64,000 bases of DNA from contig JABTUY010000001.1 in NCBI GenBank assembly GCA_015075165.1, positions 310,001-374,000 of the forward strand, written 5' to 3'. Source of the DNA: Ideonella sp. (lineage in GTDB: Bacteria; Pseudomonadota; Gammaproteobacteria; Burkholderiales; Burkholderiaceae_C). The notes beneath the pieces were generated by a model. That model did not search any database and was not told where the DNA came from. It was given only the letters and a program-made list of their open reading frames with translations. Position 1 is the first letter of the stretch. Every line of letters starts with the position of its first letter. This document shows, in pieces, positions 14,201 through 28,404 of the stretch. Made by a program: the position numbers and the translations under genes.

Positions 14201-15202
14201 CTACTTCTGCGCCGCGGCGAAGATCTTGTCGGTCACCGCGCCCGCCGGCTTCTTCGTGATCACCGGATCGCTCTTGCCCTTCATCAGCGTCTCGACCGTG
14301 CGCTCGTAGGCCTTCATGTCGAGGTGACCGGTCTTGCCGGTGCCGACCAGCTTGGCCACCTCGCCCATCATGCGCTTCTGGTGCGCCTCGTTCTGCGCGC
14401 CCGAGGCGTCGTTCTTCAGCACGATCTTCACCGCCTCGTCCTGGTGGGCCACGGCGTAGTCCCAGCCCTTCATCGTCGCCTTGACGAAGCGTGCCAGCTT
14501 GGCCGCCGTCTTCGGGTCGGCGATGCCCTTCTCGGTGGCATACAGGCCGTCTTCGAGCGTGGCAACACCCTGGTCCTCGTACTTGAAGACGGTGAGCTGC
14601 TCGGGCTTCATGCCGGCCTCGATCAGCTGCCAGTACTCGTTGTAGGTCATCGTGCTGATGCACGCGGCCTGCTTCTGCAGCAGCGGGTCGACGTTGAAGC
14701 CCTGCTTCAGCACGTTGACGCCATCGGGGCCGCCGGTGGTCTTCAGGCCGAGCTTGTCCATCCAGCTCAGGAACGGATATTCGTTGCCGGAGAACCAGAC
14801 GCCGAGCGTCTTGCCCTTGAAATCAGCCGGCGACTTGATGCCGCTGTCCTTGCGGCAGGTGAGCATCATCCCGGAGCGCTGGAACACCTGTGCGATGTTG
14901 ACCAGCGGCACGCCCTTCTCGCGCGTGGCCAGCGCCGAGGGCATCCAGTCGACGATCACATCGGCGCCGCCACCGGCGATCACCTGGCTCGGGTTGATGT
15001 CGGGGCCGCCGGCCTTGATGGTCACGTCGAGCCCGGCCTCCTTGTAGAAGCCCTTGTCCTTGGCCACGTAGTAGCCCGCGAACTGGGCCTGCGTGACCCA
15101 CTTCAGCTGCAGCGTCACCTTGTCCTGCGCCGCGGCGCCGATCGCGGCAACGGCCAGCGCCGTGGCGACCAGGAAGCGGGTCAAACGGAAGCGCGGTTTC
15201 AT
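14201..15202 (-). CDS. ABC transporter substrate-binding protein, NMT1/THI5 (ThiY-like) family
   Basis: Periplasmic binding protein of 333 residues with a Sec signal (about 1-25, AIGAAAQ cleavage region). The mature start VTLQLKWVTQAQFAGYYVAKDKGFYKEAGLDV is the hallmark of NMT1/THI5-like proteins, whose thiamin-pathway members bind a pyrimidine. It is the last gene of the minus-strand operon that encodes reductive pyrimidine degradation, so a uracil, thymine or dihydropyrimidine ligand is inferred. The ATG at 15202 is preceded by AAGGAGA; the longer upstream frame lacks a signal peptide. Taurine/sulfonate or nitrate ligands are less likely given the context. Confidence 0.88.
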   Translation of the reverse strand: MKPRFRLTRFLVATALAVAAIGAAAQDKVTLQLKWVTQAQFAGYYVAKDKGFYKEAGLDVTIKAGGPDINPSQVIAGGGADVIVDWMPSALATREKGVPLVNIAQVFQRSGMMLTCRKDSGIKSPADFKGKTLGVWFSGNEYPFLSWMDKLGLKTTGGPDGVNVLKQGFNVDPLLQKQAACISTMTYNEYWQLIEAGMKPEQLTVFKYEDQGVATLEDGLYATEKGIADPKTAAKLARFVKATMKGWDYAVAHQDEAVKIVLKNDASGAQNEAHQKRMMGEVAKLVGTGKTGHLDMKAYERTVETLMKGKSDPVITKKPAGAVTDKIFAAAQK

Positions 15203-15242
15203 CGGGGGTCTCCTTCTGGGTTGAATCCTGGGCGCTCGCGGC

Positions 15243-16184
15243 TCAGGTGCGAAACGAAGCATGCCACGACGTCAGGGCCCGCTCGGCCAGTGCCACGGCA
15301 CCGTAGAAGATCGAGCCGGCCAGCGCCGACAGCGCGATCGCGGCCCACACCACGTCGACGTTCATGCGCGCCACCTCGGCGCTGATGCGAAAGCCAAGCC
15401 CGACGATCGGAGAGCCGAAGAACTCGGCCACGATGGCCGAGATCAGCGCCAGCGTCGAATTGATCTTCAGCGCGTTGAAGATGAACGGCAGCGCACCGGG
15501 CAGGCGCAGCTTCAGCAGCGTGTCGGCGTGGCCGGCGGCATAGGTGTGCATCAGGTCGCGGTGCATCGCGTCGACCGCCACCAGCCCGGTCACCGCGTTG
15601 ACCAGCATCGGAAAGAACGTGACCAGCGCCACCACCGCGGCCTTGCTCTCCCAGCCGAAGCCGAACCACATCACCATGATCGGCGCGATGCCGACCACCG
15701 GCACCGCGCCGGCCAGCCCGGCCAGCGGCAGCAGGCCGCGGCGCAGCAGCGCGTAGCGGTCGGCCAGCACCGCCACCGCGAGGCCGCCGCCGCAGCCCAG
15801 CAGGTAGCCCGCGGCCACCGACAGCGCGGTTTGACGAAAATCGGCCTGCAGCACCTCCCAGCGCGCCGCCAATGCAGCGCCCACCGCATGCGGCGCCGGC
15901 AGCAGCACGCGCGGCACCTCGAAGCCGACCACCAGAATCTCCCACAGGTACAGCAGCCCGAGGCCGAGCAGCGCCGGCGCCAGCCAGCGACCGACGCGGC
16001 CGGTGAGGTAGCGCGCGCACTGGTCGAGCAACCACCACAGCGCCGCCGTCCACAGCACGAGCGCGGCCCACACCCACGGCGCGCCGCCACCCTTGGGCGC
16101 ATCGCCCCACACGGCGCGCAGCAGCCCCGCGGCCGCAGCCAGCAGCACCACCAGCGCGGCGGCGATGCGCGCTTCGGGCTTCAT
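15243..16184 (-). CDS. ABC transporter permease (pyrimidine-locus importer, subunit 1)
   Basis: A 313-residue inner-membrane permease of the BPD family (SsuC/TauC/ThiX type). It has several hydrophobic helices and the cytoplasmic EAA-loop segment DTLLKLRLPGALPFIFNALKI with the downstream AEFFGSPIVGLGFRI. Its ATG overlaps the stop of the other permease gene by 4 bases (ATGA), so the two are translationally coupled and probably form a heterodimer. The binding-protein gene follows after 40 bases. Substrate inferred from context as a pyrimidine. Confidence 0.9.
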   Translation of the reverse strand: MKPEARIAAALVVLLAAAAGLLRAVWGDAPKGGGAPWVWAALVLWTAALWWLLDQCARYLTGRVGRWLAPALLGLGLLYLWEILVVGFEVPRVLLPAPHAVGAALAARWEVLQADFRQTALSVAAGYLLGCGGGLAVAVLADRYALLRRGLLPLAGLAGAVPVVGIAPIMVMWFGFGWESKAAVVALVTFFPMLVNAVTGLVAVDAMHRDLMHTYAAGHADTLLKLRLPGALPFIFNALKINSTLALISAIVAEFFGSPIVGLGFRISAEVARMNVDVVWAAIALSALAGSIFYGAVALAERALTSWHASFRT

Positions 16185-17101
16185 GCCGGCCGCGCGCCCA
16201 TCAGCCGGTTGACACCACGCTCGACGCCGCTCACCGCGGCCACCAGCAGCACGCCCAGCAGCGAGGCCATCAGCAGCGCCGACCAGATCTGGATCGTCTG
16301 CCCGAAGTACGAGCCCTGCAGCAGCCGCGCGCCGAGCCCGGCCTGCGCGCCGGTGGGCAGCTCGCCGACGATGGCGCCGATCAGGCTGGTGGCGATCGCC
16401 ACCTTGGCGCTGGCGAACAGGAACGGCAGCGCCGCCGGAAAGCGCAGCTTGGCCAGCAGCTGCCGCCTGCTGGCGCTGTAGGTGCGCATCAGGTCGAGCT
16501 GCAGCGGATCGGGACTGCGCAGCCCCTTGACCATGCCGATGGCCACCGGGAAGAAGCACAGGTACATGCTGATCACCGCCTTGCTCATCAGCGGCGGGTA
16601 ACCCATCGAGCCGAGCACCACCACGACCATCGGCGCGATCGCGAGGATCGGAATCGTCTGCGACGCGATGATCCACGGCAGCAGCCCGCGGTCGAGCACG
16701 CGGTTGTGCACCACGCCGATCGCGATCGCCACGCCGAGTACCACGCCCAGCAGGAAGCCCAGCACCGTGGCGTTGAGCGTGACGCCGGCATGGAACAGCA
16801 GGTTGCGCGGGCTGTCGAGCTCGTGCCCGACCATGCTGCCCACGAATTCGACGAGGATCTGGTGCGGCGCCGGCAGCACCGGCCGCTGCATGCTCCACGC
16901 GGCAGCCACGAGCTCTTTCGTGCCCCACGGCGTGCCCGCGTTCTGCAGCTGCTCGATCACGCGCGGCGCGTTCAACCACACCGCGGCGGCGTACCACACC
17001 ACCAGCCCCACGCCGACCACCAGCGCCACCGGCCAGTGCCCGAACCAACGCGCCGCTGCGCTCGCGCGAGCGGGCGGAGGCAGCGCGACCGCGTCAGTCA
17101 C
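16181..17101 (-). CDS. ABC transporter permease (pyrimidine-locus importer, subunit 2)
   Basis: About 306 residues counted from the GTG at 17101 (VTDAVALPPPARASAAARWFGHW). The frame stays open to an ATG at 17239, but that extension reads through an intergenic repeat and is unlikely to be translated. It has BPD-type permease helices, and its EAA loop is RQLLAKLRFPAALPFLFASAKV followed by GELPTGAQAGLGARL. It lies directly downstream of the ATPase gene and overlaps the second permease gene. Two different permease subunits suggest an asymmetric importer. Confidence 0.88.
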   Translation of the reverse strand: MTDAVALPPPARASAAARWFGHWPVALVVGVGLVVWYAAAVWLNAPRVIEQLQNAGTPWGTKELVAAAWSMQRPVLPAPHQILVEFVGSMVGHELDSPRNLLFHAGVTLNATVLGFLLGVVLGVAIAIGVVHNRVLDRGLLPWIIASQTIPILAIAPMVVVVLGSMGYPPLMSKAVISMYLCFFPVAIGMVKGLRSPDPLQLDLMRTYSASRRQLLAKLRFPAALPFLFASAKVAIATSLIGAIVGELPTGAQAGLGARLLQGSYFGQTIQIWSALLMASLLGVLLVAAVSGVERGVNRLMGARPA

Positions 17102-17149
17102 GCCACCGCGCTCCGGCCACGCCGATCCGAATGAACCGCCACAACCGAG

Positions 17150-17235
17150 AGCCGCCGCGGAACCGGCTTTGCCGGGCCGCTGGCGGCGCCCCCTCCGAGG
17201 GGGAAGCGCCGCAGGCGCTCCGGGGGTAGTCCATT
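17150..17235. repeat. Hairpin-rich intergenic element
   Basis: GC-rich spacer between the ATPase and permease genes with two adjacent small hairpins (CCCCT/AGGGG and GCGCC/GGCGC). It resembles dispersed intergenic repeats common in Burkholderiales genomes. A similar kind of sequence occurs at about 37505-37625. Role unknown; family membership is from memory. Confidence 0.35.
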
Positions 17236-18084
17236 TCACTCATAGCTGTGCCCGGCGCGCAGCGCGTCGCGCACGCGGTGGGCCACGGCGGCGAACTCGG
17301 GGCTCTCGCGCAGGTTCAGCGTGCGGCCACGCGCGGGCAGCGCATGGTTCTCGATGATCTCGATGATGCGGCCGGGCCGCGGGCTCATCACGACGATGCG
17401 GTTGGACAGGAACACCGCCTCGCTGATCGAATGGGTGACGAAGATCACCGTCTTGTCGGTGCGCTCCCACAGCCGCAGCAGCTGCTCGTTCAAATGATCG
17501 CGCGTGATCTCGTCGAGCGCGCCGAACGGCTCGTCCATCAGCAGCAGCTTCGGCTCGATCGCCAGCGCGCGCGCGATCGACACGCGCTGCTGCATGCCGC
17601 CCGACAGCTGCCACGGAAACTTGCGCTCGAAGCCGGCCAGGCCCACCGCGGCGAGTTGCGCCGTCGCGCGCTGCGCCTGCTCGGCGCGCGGCACGCCCAT
17701 GATCTCGAGCGGCAGCATCACGTTGCGCAGCACGCTGCGCCACGGGTACAGCGCGGCGGCCTGGAACACATAGCCGTAGGCGCGTGCCTGCCGCGCCGCC
17801 TGCGGGCTCATGCCGTTGACGCGGATGCTGCCAGAGGTCGCGTGCTCGAGGTCGGCGATCACGCGCATCAGCGTGGTCTTGCCGCAGCCCGACGGGCCGA
17901 TGAACGAGACGAACTCGCCGCGCGCGATGCGCAGATCGACATCGGACAGCGCGTGCACCGGCGCATCGGCGGTCTGGAACACCAGCGACAGGCGCTCGAT
18001 CTCGACCGCCGCCGGTGCAGCGGCGGCCGCCGGCCCGGCGCCGGCGGCCCGGGCGGCGTCGAGCACCGCCGGTTCGCTCATCAT
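17236..18084 (-). CDS. ABC transporter ATP-binding protein (pyrimidine-locus importer)
   Basis: A 282-residue ATPase of the SsuB/TauB/ThiZ group. Walker A is GPSGCGKTT, the signature WQLSGGMQQRVSIARAL, Walker B LLLMDEPFGALD and the H-loop VTHSISEAVFLSNR. Q-loop context YGYVFQAAALYPWRSVLRNV is typical of nitrate/sulfonate/thiamin-type importers. The first ATG (18084) overlaps the last base of the amidohydrolase stop codon; a second ATG follows immediately (MMSEP). It energises the two permeases encoded just downstream. Confidence 0.92.
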   Translation of the reverse strand: MMSEPAVLDAARAAGAGPAAAAAPAAVEIERLSLVFQTADAPVHALSDVDLRIARGEFVSFIGPSGCGKTTLMRVIADLEHATSGSIRVNGMSPQAARQARAYGYVFQAAALYPWRSVLRNVMLPLEIMGVPRAEQAQRATAQLAAVGLAGFERKFPWQLSGGMQQRVSIARALAIEPKLLLMDEPFGALDEITRDHLNEQLLRLWERTDKTVIFVTHSISEAVFLSNRIVVMSPRPGRIIEIIENHALPARGRTLNLRESPEFAAVAHRVRDALRAGHSYE

Positions 18085-19346
18085 CAGCCGGCGACTCCCG
18101 CGCGCTCGAGCATCGCGTGCAGCAGCACGTTGCAGCCCGCGGTGATGTGCTCGGGCTTGGCGTCCTCGATTTCGTTGTGGCTGATGCCGTCCTTGCAGGG
18201 GATGAAGATCATGCCGGCCGGCGCGAGGCGTGCCATGTACACGGCATCGTGGCCGGCGCCGCTCACGCACGGCATATGGCTGTAGCCGAGCTTCTCGGTG
18301 GCACGCGCCACTGCCGCGATGCAATCGGGGTGGAACGGCTGCGCCGGGTAGTGCGACACCAGGTCGATCTGGATCGGCAGCCCGGTTTCCGCCGTGAGCT
18401 TCGCGGCCACGCCGCGGATGTCGGCATCCATCGCATCGCACAGCGCATCGGTGGCGTTGCGCAGGTCGATGCTGAACTTGACGCGGCCCGGAATCACGTT
18501 GCGGCTGTTCGGGTGCACCTGCACCATGCCCACCGTGCCGCGGCCGTGCGGCGGGTGGCGGTGCGCGCAGGCCACCACCTCCTGCATCAGCCGCGTGGCC
18601 ACCTGCAGGGCATCCTTGCGCAGTGCCATCGGCGTCGGGCCGGCGTGCGCCTCCATGCCGGTGACGGTGCAGTCGTACCAGCGGATGCCGAGCACGCCAC
18701 CGACCACGCCGATCACCTTGTCGTTGTCCTCCAGCACCGGGCCCTGCTCGATGTGGGTCTCGAAGTAGCAGCCGATCGGGTGCTCGCCCGGCTCCTGCGG
18801 GCCGATGTAGCCGATGCGCTCGAGCTCGCCGCGCACCGTCTTGCCGTCGACGTCCTTGGCCGCATAGGCGTGCTCGAGGGTGAACGCCTTGGCGAACACG
18901 CCCGAGCCCATCATCACCGGCACGAAGCGCGAGCCTTCCTCGTTGGTCCAGAACGCGACCTCGATCGGCGCCTCGGTCTGCACGCCGTGGTCGTTCAGCG
19001 TACGCACCACCTCGAGCCCGGCCAGCACGCCGTAGTTGCCGTCGAACTTGCCGCCGGTGGGCTGGGTGTCGATGTGGCTGCCGGTCACCACCGGCGGCAG
19101 GCTGTTGTTGCGCCCGGGGCGGCGCATGAAGCCGTTGCCGATCTTGTCGATCACCACCTCCATGCCCGCCGCACGCGCCCAGCCGAGTACGAGGTCGCGG
19201 CCCTGCTTGTCGAGGTCGGTGAGCGTCAGGCGGCACACGCCACCCTTGGGCGTGGCGCCGATGCGCGCCAGCTCCATCAGGCTGGCCCACAGGCGGGCGC
19301 CATCGATGCGCAGCCGGTCGATCGCCGGTCGGGTCTTCATGTCCAT
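18084..19346 (-). CDS. M20-family Zn amidohydrolase: N-carbamoyl-beta-alanine amidohydrolase (beta-ureidopropionase type)
   Basis: Third step of reductive pyrimidine degradation: hydrolyses N-carbamoyl-beta-alanine to beta-alanine, CO2 and ammonia. The 420 residues show the M20 metal ligands VTGSHIDTQPTGGKFDGNYG (His91, Asp102), FWTNEEGSRF and YFETHIEQGPVLE, plus the dimer/substrate segment NSRNVIPGRVKFSIDLRN. The family also includes allantoate amidohydrolase and L-carbamoylases (HyuC/AmaB). Context next to dihydropyrimidinase favours beta-ureidopropionase. The ATG at 19346 has GGAGG upstream, so it was preferred over the longer frame. Confidence 0.88.
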   Translation of the reverse strand: MDMKTRPAIDRLRIDGARLWASLMELARIGATPKGGVCRLTLTDLDKQGRDLVLGWARAAGMEVVIDKIGNGFMRRPGRNNSLPPVVTGSHIDTQPTGGKFDGNYGVLAGLEVVRTLNDHGVQTEAPIEVAFWTNEEGSRFVPVMMGSGVFAKAFTLEHAYAAKDVDGKTVRGELERIGYIGPQEPGEHPIGCYFETHIEQGPVLEDNDKVIGVVGGVLGIRWYDCTVTGMEAHAGPTPMALRKDALQVATRLMQEVVACAHRHPPHGRGTVGMVQVHPNSRNVIPGRVKFSIDLRNATDALCDAMDADIRGVAAKLTAETGLPIQIDLVSHYPAQPFHPDCIAAVARATEKLGYSHMPCVSGAGHDAVYMARLAPAGMIFIPCKDGISHNEIEDAKPEHITAGCNVLLHAMLERAGVAG

Positions 19347-19386
19347 CGCTTGCCTCCTGCTCGGGGTTGCGCTCGCCGCGGGCGCG

Positions 19387-22189
<2,803 letters not shown>

Positions 22190-22213: not shown

Positions 22214-23587
22214 TCAGCGGCGGCCGAGCGCCTCGTGGATCGACGCGGCGGCGAGCTTGCCGTCCTGCACCGCCTCGACGGTGAGGTCGCGGCCGCCGAA
22301 GCGGCAGTCGCCGCCGGCCCACACGCCGGCCACGCTGGTGCGGCCCTGGTCGTCGGTGCGGATGCGGCCGCCTTCGAGCGCGATCTCGGACCCGGCCGGC
22401 GCGGCCACGTAGGTCTGCCCGATCGCGCGCAGCACCATGTCGGCCGGCAACGTGAAGCCGCTGGCCAGCTCGACCAGGCGGCCGTCGGCCACGGTGGTGT
22501 CGGCAAAGCGCACGCCGCTGACGCGGCCGTCGCGGCTCAGCACCTCGGCCGGCGCGGCCCAGTGGCGGATCGTGACGCCGTTGCGCTGCGCCCAGGCCTG
22601 CTCGTGCGCCGACGCCGCCATCGACTCGGGCCCGCGGCGGTAGACGATGGTCGCGGTGGTGGCGCCGAGCAGCTTGCACTGCACGGCGGCATCCACCGCC
22701 GTCATGCCGCCGCCGATCACGACCACGTCGCGGCCGACCGGCAGCCGCGACACATCAGCGGCCTGGCGCAGCTCGGCGATGAAATCGACCGCCGCGCGCA
22801 GCGCCGGGCTGTCGGGCTCGGCGATGCCCAGTGCGTTGACGCCGGCCAGCCCGAGGCCGAGAAACACGGCGTCGAAGTCGCGCCGCAAGGCGTCGAGCGT
22901 GATGTCGCGGCCGAGCTGCTGGCCGCAGCGCAGTTCGATGCCGCCGAGCGACAGCAGCCACTGCAGCTCGCGCTGCGCGAAGTTGTCGGTCGTCTTGTAG
23001 GCGGCGATGCCGTACTCGTTCAGCCCGCCGCCCTTGGCGCGCGCCTCGAACACCACCACATCGTGCCCGCGGCGCGACAGGCCGTGCGCGCAGGCCAGCC
23101 CCGCCGGGCCGGCGCCAACCACCGCCACGCGGCGCCCGGTGGCGGGCGCGCGCGTGAACAGCGGCGCGCCGCCGGCCGCGAACAACGCATCGGTGGCGTG
23201 GCGCTGCAGCGCGCCGATCTCCACCGGCTTGTCTTCGTGCGTGTTGCGCACGCAGGCCTGCTCGCACAGCTCTTCGGTCGGACACACGCGCGCGCACATG
23301 CCGCCCAGCGGGTTGGCCTGCTGGATCAGCTTGGCTGCGCCGCGCAGGTTGCCCTGCGCGATGCGTGCGATGAAGCCCGGCACGTCGATGCCGGTGGGGC
23401 ATGCGATGGTGCACGGCGCGTCGTGGCAGTACAGGCAGCGCTCGGACTCGACCGCCGCCTGCCCCGCCGTCAGCGGCGGGTGGGCATCGGCGAAGTTGCG
23501 GGCGAACTCGGCGGCGCCGAGCCGGCCGGCGACCAGGCCCTCGCTGCGGCGGGCCGGCGTGGGCGGGGCGGGAGGCGAAACGGGCAT
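22214..23587 (-). CDS. preT: NAD(P)-dependent dihydropyrimidine dehydrogenase, subunit PreT
   Basis: Electron-input subunit, related to the small subunit of glutamate synthase. N-terminal cysteines CLYCHDAPCTIACPTGIDVP (Cys51, 54, 59, 63) and GGMCARVCPTEELCEQACVR bind Fe-S clusters. VAVVGAGPAGLACAHGL is the FAD Rossmann motif and VVVIGGGMTAVDAAVQ the NADH one. It has 457 residues and is the first gene of the eight-gene minus-strand operon. Its start is 117 bases from the divergent TetR gene, with two RutR-like operators between. Confidence 0.94.
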   Translation of the reverse strand: MPVSPPAPPTPARRSEGLVAGRLGAAEFARNFADAHPPLTAGQAAVESERCLYCHDAPCTIACPTGIDVPGFIARIAQGNLRGAAKLIQQANPLGGMCARVCPTEELCEQACVRNTHEDKPVEIGALQRHATDALFAAGGAPLFTRAPATGRRVAVVGAGPAGLACAHGLSRRGHDVVVFEARAKGGGLNEYGIAAYKTTDNFAQRELQWLLSLGGIELRCGQQLGRDITLDALRRDFDAVFLGLGLAGVNALGIAEPDSPALRAAVDFIAELRQAADVSRLPVGRDVVVIGGGMTAVDAAVQCKLLGATTATIVYRRGPESMAASAHEQAWAQRNGVTIRHWAAPAEVLSRDGRVSGVRFADTTVADGRLVELASGFTLPADMVLRAIGQTYVAAPAGSEIALEGGRIRTDDQGRTSVAGVWAGGDCRFGGRDLTVEAVQDGKLAAASIHEALGRR

Positions 23588-23626: not shown

Positions 23627-23660
23627 TTCACCACATGGTAAGTTTTGACCACTTGGTGAT
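23627..23660. promoter_or_regulatory. Two tandem RutR-like operators
   Basis: Site A, 23627-23642: TTCACCA-CA-TGGTAAG. Site B, 23645-23660: TTGACCA-CT-TGGTGAT. The E. coli RutR consensus is TTGACCA-N2-TGGTCAA; site B matches 12 and site A 11 of 14 defined positions (my count). They lie 18 bp centre to centre in the gap between preT and the TetR-family gene, so both the catabolic operon and the regulator could be repressed until uracil or thymine is present. Confidence 0.72.
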
Positions 23661-23703
23661 TTCCCTCGCTGGCCGCCGCCGCATCGCGGGCACCATCGGC
23701 CCC

Positions 23704-24417
23704 GTGCAGAAGCCGCCGCCCCGTGCGCCCCAACGCCCGCGCGAGCAACGCCGGCACGACAAGGAACAGGCGATCCTGAAGGAGGCCGAGGCGCAGTTCG
23801 CGCGCGGCGGCTTCCACGGCACTTCGCTCGAGGGCATCGCCGCCGCGCTGGGGCTGTCGCGCCACAACCTGCTGTACTACTTTCCGAGCAAGGACGCGCT
23901 GTATCGTCGCGTGATCGACGACGTGGTCGCGCAGTGGCTCGAAGGCATGGGCGCCATCGCCGCCAGCGACGAGCCGGCGGCGGCGCTGCGCCGCTACATC
24001 GGCGCCAAGCTGCGCTACTCGGCCGAGCGGCCCGAGGGCACCAGCGTCTTCACGCAAGAGGTGATGGCCGGCGCGCCGCGCTACGCGCGCGAGATCGTCG
24101 AGCGCGTGCAGCCGGTGCTGCAGGCCGACGTGCGCGTGTTCGAGCGCTGGGCGCGCGGCCGCCGCGTGCACAGGCTGCCGTTCACGCACCTGATGTTCGT
24201 GCTGTGGGCGGCGACCCAGGCCTACGCCGACCTGGCGCCGCAGTTCGCGCTGCTGCTGGGCAAGCCCCGGCTCGACGCGGCGGATTTCGCAGCCGCGCAG
24301 GCGGTGATCGAGGCGCTGGCGTTCGGCGCGCTCGGCCTCGCGGCGCCGGCGGCCGACGAGCCGCCACGCGCCGCAGCCGGCAAGCGCCCCCTGGCCGGCC
24401 CGAAGCGCCGGCGCTGA
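23704..24417 (+). CDS. TetR-family regulator, RutR-like
   Basis: About 237 residues. The DNA-binding domain contains ILKEAEAQFARGGFHGTSLEGIAAALGLSRHNLLYYFPSKDALYRRVIDD, very like RutR (FGFHGTRLEQIA..NLLYYFPSKEALY), and the C-terminal half includes FTHLMFVLWAATQAYADLAPQ, which parallels RutR's HLIFMIWASTQHYADFA. RutR senses uracil/thymine. The GTG at 23704 is preferred because the upstream ATG at 23635 lies inside a putative operator. It is divergent from preT, which fits a local regulator of pyrimidine degradation. Ligand not proven. Confidence 0.88.
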   Translation: MQKPPPRAPQRPREQRRHDKEQAILKEAEAQFARGGFHGTSLEGIAAALGLSRHNLLYYFPSKDALYRRVIDDVVAQWLEGMGAIAASDEPAAALRRYIGAKLRYSAERPEGTSVFTQEVMAGAPRYAREIVERVQPVLQADVRVFERWARGRRVHRLPFTHLMFVLWAATQAYADLAPQFALLLGKPRLDAADFAAAQAVIEALAFGALGLAAPAADEPPRAAAGKRPLAGPKRRR

Positions 24418-24501: not shown

Positions 24502-25437
24502 CTACCGCGCCGGCTCCGCCCGGTGCGCGTCCACCAGGCATTGGCGAAACGCCTCGGCGGCGCGCGTCGGCGGCGGCTCGTAGCGGTGGATGCACAGGAA
24601 GCGGCAGCGATAGTGGAGCACCCCGGGCGACACCGCCTTCAGCCGCCCTTCGCGCACGAACGGTGCCGCATAGTGGTCGGGCAGGAAGCCGACGAAGGCG
24701 CCCGACATCACCAGCATCGCCACGCCCTCCTGGTCCGACGCGGTGGCCGCGCGACGCAACTGGTTGGCGTGCGTGAGCTCGAGGTTGGGTGAGTGGTAGT
24801 CCAGGCCCGCCAGGTCCAGCGCCGCCAGCGCGCGCCAGCCGCGCGCGCTGCGCGATTCGAACCACGGGTGGCCCGGGCCGGCGTACAGCAGCATCGTCTC
24901 GTCGAACAGCTCGTCGTAGCGCAGGCTCTCGCTGCGCCGGTGCTCGGGGATCACGCCGAGGTGGTAGCGGCCGTCCATCACGCCGCGCTCGATCATCGTG
25001 ATGGTGCCCACGTGCAGGTGCAGCCGCACCTCGGGCGCCAGCGCGCGATAGCGTTGCAGCGCCAGCGCCACCTGCGCGCGCGGGTTGCTGGCGCACTTCT
25101 CGAACAGCGCCAGGTGCAGATCGCCGCCCATGCGCTGCGTCAGCTCGTGCAGGCTGGTGCGAAACGCGTCGGTAGCCGCCAGCAGGCCCTTGGCCGCCAC
25201 GTAGACCTGCTCGCCCTCGGGCGTCAGCGCGAAGCCCGCGCGGCCGCGCCGGCACAGCACCAGGCCGAGCCGCTGCTCCAGATCCTTGACGTGGCGGCTG
25301 ATGGTCGAGATCGCGATGTTCAGCTCGAGCTCGGCCGCAGCCATGCTGCCGCAATCGGCCACCGCCTTAAACACCCGCAGCAGCCGCAGGTCGACATCGG
25401 CCACCTGGCCGAGCAGCGCACGATCCCTTGGTTTCAC
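24502..25437 (-). CDS. LysR-family transcriptional regulator
   Basis: A 311-residue regulator with an N-terminal winged helix-turn-helix (DLRLLRVFKAVADCGSMAAAELELNIAISTISRHVKDLEQRLG, about 17-58) and a C-terminal periplasmic-binding-like effector domain. It starts at a GTG (25437). It is divergent from the beta-alanine:pyruvate transaminase gene, so it probably controls beta-alanine disposal with beta-alanine or a pathway intermediate as ligand (inference). A 15-bp dyad lies just upstream of its start. Confidence 0.88.
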   Translation of the reverse strand: MKPRDRALLGQVADVDLRLLRVFKAVADCGSMAAAELELNIAISTISRHVKDLEQRLGLVLCRRGRAGFALTPEGEQVYVAAKGLLAATDAFRTSLHELTQRMGGDLHLALFEKCASNPRAQVALALQRYRALAPEVRLHLHVGTITMIERGVMDGRYHLGVIPEHRRSESLRYDELFDETMLLYAGPGHPWFESRSARGWRALAALDLAGLDYHSPNLELTHANQLRRAATASDQEGVAMLVMSGAFVGFLPDHYAAPFVREGRLKAVSPGVLHYRCRFLCIHRYEPPPTRAAEAFRQCLVDAHRAEPAR

Positions 25438-26904: not shown

Positions 26905-28404
26905 ATGCCAAACCTCATCCCCCACCTGATCGACGGCCAGCGCCGCGATGGCGGCGAGCGCGCCGCCGATGTGTTCAACCCCGCCACCGGCGAGGTCAGC
27001 GGCCGCGTGCGGCTCGCCGATGCGGCCACTGTGCAGGCCGCGATCGCGTCGGCGCATGCCGCGTTCCCGGCCTGGCGCAACACGCCGCCGCTGAAGCGTG
27101 CGCGCGTGATGAGCCAGTTCAAGACGCTGCTCGAGGCACGCGCCGCCGACATCGCCAAGCTGATCACCGCCGAGCACGGCAAGGTGTTGTCCGACAGCAT
27201 GGGCGAGGTGCAGCGCGGCATCGAGAACGTCGAATACGCGAGCTACGCACCCGAGCTGCTCAAGGGCGAGCACAGCCGCAACGCCGGCCCGGGCATCGAC
27301 TCGTGGAGCGAGTTCCAGCCGCTGGGCGTGGTGGCCGGCATCACGCCGTTCAACTTCCCGGCGATGGTGCCGCTGTGGATGTGGCCGATGGCGGTGGCCT
27401 GCGGCAACAGCTTCGTGCTCAAGCCGTCCGAGCGCGACCCCAGCAGCGCGCTGCTGGTGGCCGAGCTGGCGCTCGAGGCCGGCCTGCCGGCGGGCGTGCT
27501 CAACGTCGTCAACGGCGACAAGGAAGCCGTCGACACGCTGCTGACCGATGCGCGCGTGCAGGCGGTGAGCTTCGTCGGTTCGACGCCGGTGGCGCAATCG
27601 ATCTACGCCACCGGCTGCGCGCACGGCAAGCGCGTGCAGGCGCTCGGCGGCGCGAAGAACCACGCGGTGGTGATGCCCGATGCCGACATCGTCAACGCGG
27701 TGAGCGCGCTGCTCGGCGCGGCGTTCGGCTCGTGCGGCGAGCGCTGCATGGCGATCCCGCTGGTGGTGGCGGTGGGCGACGCCACCGCCGACGCGGTGGT
27801 GGCGGCGCTGAAGGCCGAGATCGCGAAGATGACGGTCGGCCCCGGCACCGCCAGCGGTGCCGACATGGGGCCGCTGGTCACGCGGGCGCACTTCGACAAG
27901 GTGCGCGGCTATGTCGACCAGGGTGTGGCCGAAGGCGCCAAGCTGGTGGTCGACGGCCGCGGCCTGCGCGTGGCCGGCCACGAGAAGGGCTACTTCCTCG
28001 GGCCGTGCCTGTTCGACCACGTGAAGCCGGGCATGCGCATCTACCAGGAAGAGATCTTCGGCCCGGTGCTCGGCGTGGTGCGCGTGGCCAGCCTCGACGA
28101 GGCGATGCGCCTGATCGACGCACACGAGTACGGCAACGGCACCTGCATCTTCACGCGCGACGGCGAGGCGGCACGCTACTTCACCGACCACATCCAGATC
28201 GGCATGGTCGGCGTCAACGTGCCGCTGCCGGTGCCGGTGGCGTACCACAGCTTCGGCGGCTGGAAGCGCTCGCTGTTCGGCGACCTCGGTGCCTACGGGC
28301 CCGACGCGGTGCGCTTCTACACGCGCCGCAAGACGATCACGCAGCGCTGGCCTTCGGCCGGTGTGCGCGAAGGCGCGGTGTTCGCCTTCCCGTCGAGCCG
28401 ATGA
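26905..28404 (+). CDS. mmsA: CoA-acylating (methyl)malonate-semialdehyde dehydrogenase
   Basis: Oxidative decarboxylation of malonate or methylmalonate semialdehyde to acetyl- or propionyl-CoA with NAD. An aldehyde-dehydrogenase fold of 499 residues: GITPFNFPAMVPLWMWPMA (MmsA/IolA hallmark), FVGSTPVAQSIYATG, and the catalytic cysteine in SCGERCMAIP (Cys281). It follows the transaminase in the same direction with a 20-bp gap, so the pair completes uracil (acetyl-CoA) and thymine (propionyl-CoA) breakdown. It could also serve valine or inositol catabolism. Confidence 0.94.
   Translation: MPNLIPHLIDGQRRDGGERAADVFNPATGEVSGRVRLADAATVQAAIASAHAAFPAWRNTPPLKRARVMSQFKTLLEARAADIAKLITAEHGKVLSDSMGEVQRGIENVEYASYAPELLKGEHSRNAGPGIDSWSEFQPLGVVAGITPFNFPAMVPLWMWPMAVACGNSFVLKPSERDPSSALLVAELALEAGLPAGVLNVVNGDKEAVDTLLTDARVQAVSFVGSTPVAQSIYATGCAHGKRVQALGGAKNHAVVMPDADIVNAVSALLGAAFGSCGERCMAIPLVVAVGDATADAVVAALKAEIAKMTVGPGTASGADMGPLVTRAHFDKVRGYVDQGVAEGAKLVVDGRGLRVAGHEKGYFLGPCLFDHVKPGMRIYQEEIFGPVLGVVRVASLDEAMRLIDAHEYGNGTCIFTRDGEAARYFTDHIQIGMVGVNVPLPVPVAYHSFGGWKRSLFGDLGAYGPDAVRFYTRRKTITQRWPSAGVREGAVFAFPSSR

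Follow-up and report, generated by a model that had tools for sequence, protein, structure and literature searches.

Two adjacent palindromes in the gap between preT and a divergently oriented TetR-family gene are, in all likelihood, the operator of the RutR-like repressor encoded next to them; judged from sequence comparison, two dimers of this protein would occupy the pair, control both divergent promoters and be relieved by uracil. The window, the whole stretch of DNA that was analysed with a length of 64 kb, carries the element in the following form.

23627 to 23642, no strand assigned: left operator, TTCACCACATGGTAAG
23645 to 23660, no strand assigned: right operator, TTGACCACTTGGTGAT, its centre 18 bp from that of the left operator
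23661 to 23665, no strand assigned: TTCCC, immediately after the right operator

A previous sequence-only reading had pointed out two adjacent near-matches to TTGACCA-N2-TGGTCAA at 23627-23660, placed between preT and a TetR regulator, and both observations hold. The letters TTGACCA are those of the RutR consensus, from which the left site TTCACCACATGGTAAG departs by three mismatches and the right site TTGACCACTTGGTGAT by two, and both sites lie inside the 116-bp gap that extends from the start of preT (23587, minus strand) to the start of the divergent regulator gene (23704, plus strand). With the scoring consensus TTKACCANNTGGTMAA (TTKACCAnnTGGTMAA), which has 14 scored positions and permits a change seen in relatives, just two sites of at least 12/14 are found in the 64-kb window, and these are the two members of the pair; simulated windows hold a mean of 0.05 such sites per 64 kb, with no close pair in 40 windows. 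In the 5.07-Mb genome the pair pattern TNACCN4GGTNAN4TNACCN4GGTNA occurs at a single place with 0 mismatches, which is still the sole place when up to 2 mismatches are tolerated, a tolerance at which the backwards control also gives 1. The genome scan for the motif that had been proposed thus pins down the pair, but not the single motif: the 16-mer TTGACCA-N2-TGGTCAA with up to 3 mismatches is found at 301 places genome-wide versus 289 for the backwards control, and WTKACCANNTGGTMAW with up to 2 mismatches at 65 places versus 93, both of which correspond to chance. A regulon search by the single motif was consequently dropped, since with single sites at chance level genome-wide no wider regulon is readable.

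The genes around the pair are arranged as follows.

22214 to 23587, minus strand: preT, NAD(P)H-side subunit of dihydropyrimidine dehydrogenase (Fer4_20 and Pyr_redox_2 domains; place before preA)
20885 to 22189, minus strand: preA, dihydropyrimidine dehydrogenase subunit (NF006183, 711.9 bits versus a cut-off of 335)
19387 to 20892, minus strand: hydA, dihydropyrimidinase (TIGR02033, 565 bits versus a cut-off of 393; alternative ATG start at 20838)
18084 to 19451, minus strand: amidase of the hydantoinase/carbamoylase family (TIGR01879, 407 bits versus 204; start perhaps at 19346)
17236 to 18084, minus strand: ABC transporter ATPase
16181 to 17239, minus strand: ABC transporter permease (NF040733, 52 bits, under its cut-off)
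15243 to 16184, minus strand: second ABC permease, named by position
14201 to 15262, minus strand: NMT1/THI5-like substrate-binding protein (PF09084, 158.8 bits)
23704 to 24417, plus strand: RutR-like TetR-family regulator (PF00440 and PF08362; GTG start assumed)
24502 to 25437, minus strand: LysR gene, beyond the regulator
up to 26884: omega-aminotransferase, beyond the LysR gene
26905 to 28404: MMSDH (TIGR01722, 650.8 versus a cut-off of 448.5)

All genes from preT through the NMT1-like gene stand close-packed on the minus strand, and the scores of PreA and the dihydropyrimidinase confirm the earlier assignment of this operon to the reductive pathway of pyrimidine breakdown. Equally, the proposal that the reductive rather than the oxidative Rut route is governed here agrees with the genome of the window (G000), in which rutA (TIGR03612) finds no match. 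No NCBIfam model scores above its cut-off for preT among the matches listed. The amidase at 18084 to 19451 passes, in addition, NF006769, a model named allantoate amidohydrolase (646.9 versus a cut-off of 452), so that its substrate has to be derived from the neighbouring genes, a context in which it is a probable beta-ureidopropionase. Of the two permeases, the second has no NCBIfam match at 1e-20, and the ABC operons of relatives resembling that of the window have two permease matches each. The NMT1/THI5-like protein probably serves pyrimidine uptake, and the omega-aminotransferase and MMSDH would take beta-alanine onward. The reading frame of the regulator is open upstream of the assumed start, and other possible starts fall inside the operators.

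The regulator had been described as RutR-like in its DNA-binding helix and its ligand domain, a description that helix, pocket and fold all bear out. It passes the Pfam gathering scores of both PF00440 (TetR_N, 49.3 bits with a cut-off of 24) and PF08362 (YcdC-like C-terminal domain, 119.4 bits with a cut-off of 25), and belongs by these scores to the TetR family with a RutR-type ligand domain. A sequence comparison with solved structures places E. coli RutR nearest (PDB, E=2e-34), and the structure model of the protein (mean pLDDT 85.8) has its best fold match in E. coli RutR at 34% identity, with all of the top 8 PDB fold matches being E. coli RutR in entries whose titles state uracil, dihydrouracil or the absence of a ligand. 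Where RutR has Lys52-Thr53 in its recognition helix, this protein has Arg-His. On the other hand, the protein stays below the RutR equivalog cut-offs (TIGR03613/NF011584, 150.1 versus 368 and 127.1 versus 230), and in a quick tree of 74 rows it falls into a separate set of 34 rows (SH-aLRT 99), with E. coli RutR grouping with L027-L029, L031 and L201 (SH-aLRT 98). The possibility that the regulator is RutR itself was dismissed on account of the scores below cut-off, the separate branch and the absence of rutA; as far as sequence and model tell, the protein resembles RutR in its helix, its ligand pocket and its fold, but is not RutR.

The pocket bears directly on the nature of the effector. Uracil is held in E. 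coli RutR by W77, Y97, W167, Q171 and Q179 (PMC10891134), and 5/5 of these contact residues are kept in the regulator of the window, as they are all kept in 133 of 141 aligned sequences, an alignment that includes E. coli RutR and in which the window protein and a few genomes are each entered twice. At the position of the uracil-stacking Trp77, six RutR-like proteins from more distant bacteria (L192, L193, L194, L198, L199 and L200) carry Leu or Ile, so that their ligand may differ. For the regulator studied here, another compound of the pathway such as dihydrouracil, thymine or N-carbamoyl-beta-alanine in place of uracil is conceivable, since E. coli RutR has been crystallized with dihydrouracil (4xk4) and the operon produces dihydrouracil, but with the five contact residues unchanged and with uracil, not thymine, given as the relevant ligand of E. 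coli RutR (PMC6245113), such an effector is considered rather unlikely.

Comparison with relatives shows that the arrangement of the pair is kept. In a survey of the family, 115 of 120 genomes have some TetR match to the regulator, among which the 17 best places (L005-L021, window included, E <=2.1e-50) stand out, with preT adjoining in 16/17. The closest 12 loci (L005-L016, window included) have two sites 18 bp apart in 12/12, and the more distant L018-L021 have one site in the same divergent gene order. A set of named genomes, the best 80 of 344 relatives, extends this comparison to Acidovorax, Paracidovorax, Roseateles, Pelomonas, Hydrogenophaga, Rubrivivax and others; a preT match is found in 73 of these 80 loci and is adjacent and divergent in 72. 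Within these 72 gaps from the best 80 of 344, the spacing of the best two sites is 18 bp in 64 gaps and 17 bp in 2, the remaining 6 having other distances, as compared with an 18-bp spacing in 1.0% of 1440 shuffled gaps (dinucleotide shuffles, with mononucleotide shuffles as fallback). L099 and L107, among the six off-register gaps, have a weaker 18-bp pair by eye, which brings the gaps with a second site at 17 or 18 bp to 68/72 (66 by scan and 2 by eye). The remaining four (L042, L043, L049 and L088) have one site only, and, as L043 and L049 belong to the nearest relatives of the window in the tree, this is seen close to the window as well; a second site is thus not needed everywhere.

The 48 distinct 34-mers derived from 65 of the 72 gaps of this set (best 80 of 344) have nearly invariant half-site cores and scrambled outer flanks. 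The operators do recur in the same gap across relatives, but the consensus of the clade is TTTAC(C/T)...GTAAA, not TTGACCA. The CCC that follows the right operator (23663-23665 in the window) is equally nearly invariant, in 48, 47 and 45 of the 48 34-mers for its three positions; it stands on one side of the pair only, irrespective of whether a sigma-54-like element is present. The sites of the window themselves depart from near-invariant positions of the relatives with C at 3, G at 16 and T at 34. A few loci fall outside the common arrangement. In L039 and L090 the pair is present with no preT match nearby (within 20 kb for L039, on a short contig for L090), L017, L047, L054 and L096 have a regulator of the window's clade and no pair, and the contigs of L061, L069 and L074 stop at the regulator start, so that the gap is missing. 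One chromosome of Polaromonas sp. P2-4 contains the regulator twice, as L039 and L041 at a distance of about 23 kb; both copies have the same two sites, 17 bp apart, and preT stands beside L041 only.

Whether the two sites work jointly is the point on which the readings divide. A reading in which each divergent promoter has an independent operator of its own, the two being spaced by the overlap of the promoters with no cooperation of dimers, would accommodate the four of 72 gaps that manage with one site and equally the distant L018-L021 with a single site in the same divergent order. However, separate operators need no fixed register, and the second site at 17 or 18 bp is retained although the gaps vary in length from 99 to 545 bp including margins (72 gaps from the best 80 of 344) and the flanks are scrambled; the register therefore counts against independent operators, which appear unlikely, if not implausible. 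The fixed register of 17 to 18 bp amid scrambled flanks argues instead that the dimers touch or share DNA shape. With 10.5 bp per turn assumed, a step of 18 bp would turn one dimer by about 100 degrees relative to the other around the helix axis.

The pair is distinctive enough to find its locus blindly. The pattern TTACN6GTAAN6ACCN5GTNA, strict enough that the window and some paired relatives do not match it, occurs in 32 of 399 family genomes at one place each, versus 1 genome (G110) for the backwards control. Inspection covered 31 of these 32 places (G182 was left out): 30/30 fetched places sit between preT and the regulator, and so does the 31st, which is L014. At the level of the order, 300 genomes were drawn, 9 of them family members; the 291 others gave 4 matches, to sequences that do not resemble the pair, versus 3 for the backwards control, and these are taken as chance. 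This lineage limit of the pair is a new detail. Palindromes that arose by chance, or that serve another protein, would be in line with the chance-level count of the single 16-mer in the genome, but such an origin is hardly credible given the spacing in 64/72 gaps versus 1.0% of shuffles, the 31/31 inspected places of the blind search with one control genome, the uniqueness in the window, the kept 34-mer, and the outcome for 1.315 Mb outside the gap in the 72 loci (best 80 of 344), which contain no pair and no site of at least 13/14. The pair is very probably a real operator and was correctly read in the first place.

Taken together, a RutR-like regulator, operators kept among relatives and a genome with no rutA match suggest that the regulator very probably represses the operon and itself until uracil is available. 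When uracil is missing, the 34-bp element would be occupied by two repressor dimers next to each other, which would close the two divergent promoters, the one of preT-preA-hydA-bup-ABC and the regulator's own. A pocket of the same build as in E. coli RutR would accept uracil or a near derivative of it, dihydrouracil for instance, the ligand-bound dimers would leave, and reductive pyrimidine breakdown and uptake would be switched on. Binding, repression, ligand and cooperation of the dimers in this scheme are what we infer; directly readable from sequence are the two sites and the constant register that they have in relatives, the order of the genes, the family to which the protein belongs and the residues of its pocket. 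The promoters to be blocked are not placed, because no sigma-70-like promoter was found in the preT/regulator gap of the window.

In a part of the relatives, the same gap carries signals of a second layer of control. The sigma-54 -24/-12 consensus was taken as TGGCACGN4TTGCW and the NtrC consensus as TGCACCAN3TGGTGCA. A sigma-54-like element with 11 or 12 of 12 positions, directed towards preT, is found in 37 of the 72 gaps (best 80 of 344), a score of 11 never being reached in mononucleotide shuffles, with 8 to 11 bp between its end and the right operator, the pair being downstream of the element. These are Acidovorax, Paracidovorax, Extensimonas and Hydrogenophaga-type loci (for example L045, minus strand), most of which also have an NtrC-like palindrome nearer the regulator start; in the Pelomonas/Roseateles loci scanned a sigma-54-like element was not found. 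The NtrC scan covered the 72 gaps from the best 80 of 344 together with the window, all lengthened so as to reach into the regulator gene, and gave a palindrome of at least 11/14 in 37 of the 73 sequences versus about 1% of shuffles; in L040, L077, L103 and L111 the palindrome differs in sequence and there is no sigma-54-like element of at least 11. For the window, a sigma-54 promoter was rejected with a best score of 7 of 12, within the shuffle range, and the best NtrC-like palindrome reaches 9 of 14, under the threshold of 11. A link of the reductive pathway to NtrC is also found in the NtrC-regulon table of Burkholderia cenocepacia, where dihydropyrimidine dehydrogenase is given with -5.1, dihydropyrimidinase with -3.7 and the pyrimidine permease of the reductive pathway with -3.8 (PMC5491218), negative values being taken as lower expression in the ntrC mutant.

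The location of the pair relative to this promoter also bears on the direction of regulation. Activation of the operon by the regulator, with the pair as activator site, could be envisaged from E. coli RutR, which activates carAB P1 (PMC6245113), but the pair in relatives starts 8 to 11 bp downstream of the sigma-54-like promoter, which is a place for blocking, and P. putida PydR is termed a repressor in the title of Hidese 2012, which makes activation highly improbable.

The number of sites goes along with a residue of the recognition helix. With operator states assigned by the authors from scans and by-eye reading, a pair at 17 or 18 bp is present in 80 of 83 Arg52 loci and one site in 5 of 5 Lys52 loci, an association that provides a lead rather than a test since five genomes are counted twice and the loci largely represent one tree branch. 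The count was made without L017, L039, L047, L054, L061, L069, L074, L090 and L096, where preT is not adjacent, and without the more distant L022-L034 and all of L172-L201. In L088 (Inhella proteolytica), nested in the two-site clade, Lys52-Gln53 is combined with a single operator, and helix and operator seem to have reverted together. Lys52 with one site and Arg52 with two sites constitute a natural series for studying the gain of a second operator by a TetR-family switch. It is tentatively suggested, as an idea with somewhat less than an even chance of being right, that in this lineage of Burkholderiales a rigid two-dimer operator evolved along with a Lys-to-Arg exchange in the recognition helix of the uracil sensor and converted a one-site PydR-like switch to a steep and cooperative lock, which in Acidovorax-type members would stand directly downstream of a sigma-54 promoter with an NtrC-like site. 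If this is true, the Acidovorax-type operon would open only with nitrogen short and uracil present and would thereby have reached, on a different pathway, the same logic as the rut operon of E. coli.

In the ten family genomes that were checked, the RutR branch occurs with rutA and the separate branch without: rutA is above cut-off in 4/4 genomes with a RutR-branch regulator, at a distance of 2 to 10 kb, and in 0/6 genomes with a window-type regulator, the window's own included. Pfam scans of six open frames near the RutR-branch genes gave little information. A third RutR-like group has a PKAN-type helix and 35 to 39% identity to the window protein and is a second regulator solution within the family; in L149 the PKAN-type regulator closes an ABC operon convergent with preT-preA-hydA-bup, and in L150, L154 and L159 it stands at the end of a similar ABC operon. 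In the phylum, a profile of the clade finds relatives at E <=1e-30 in 125 of 398 genomes. Among 20 of those 125 viewed with their neighbours, RutR-like genes are seen in reductive clusters (L202, L206, L212 and L214 are examples), some of the 20 loci having single sites and some none of at least 12/14, and L212 having two sites 33 bp apart.

Control of the reductive route by a relative of RutR has a precedent. PydR of P. putida is described, in the title of Hidese et al. (2012, J. Biochem. 152:341; cited in PMC7332683), as a RutR-like protein that represses the gene of dihydropyrimidine dehydrogenase, and by this description it resembles the present case in the type of regulator and in the dehydrogenase gene of the reductive route. 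Here, too, a RutR-like gene adjoins the dihydropyrimidine dehydrogenase genes, in the window and in 72 loci of the best 80 of 344 named relatives, and with PydR as precedent the idea that a relative of RutR governs the reductive route is right, but not new. We know of no tandem 18-bp operator for PydR. Among the best-ranked matches in the open PMC literature no title deals with a tandem operator for RutR or PydR, which is weak evidence for novelty. Computed RutR regulons for 'pyrimidine catabolism' comprise 68 genomes of 13 proteobacterial groups with 273 sites and include taxon-specific changes in the RutR motif (Leyn et al., 2016; PMC5343134); the word 'dihydropyrimidine' is absent in the main text of that work (PMC5343134), its passages on these regulons name no tandem operator, and a part of the operator may stand already in RegPrecise records or in the supplements of Leyn et al.

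Two TetR-family dimers on one operator, as predicted here, are known from QacR and CprB, the dimers of CprB sharing 22 bp from opposite DNA sides (PMC4150764). Those dimers share one stretch, whereas here two complete palindromes stand side by side with centres 18 bp apart, which by their sequence do not look like the shared site of QacR/CprB. With E. coli RutR the regulator shares the fold, the uracil pocket, the core of the recognition helix and the 16-bp palindromic box and, in part of the relatives only, the sign of NtrC-dependent pathway genes, as expression of the rut operon is NtrC-dependent in E. coli (PMC10891134); it differs in having Arg-His in place of Lys52-Thr53, reductive instead of oxidative pathway genes and a TTTAC-type clade consensus instead of the TTGACCA box. 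What is new in comparison with these systems is the rigid tandem operator, its TTTAC-type consensus and, in Acidovorax-type relatives, the abutting sigma-54-like promoter. An unstudied group of regulators is hereby connected with reductive pyrimidine breakdown, through a DNA signature by which the locus can be found blindly.
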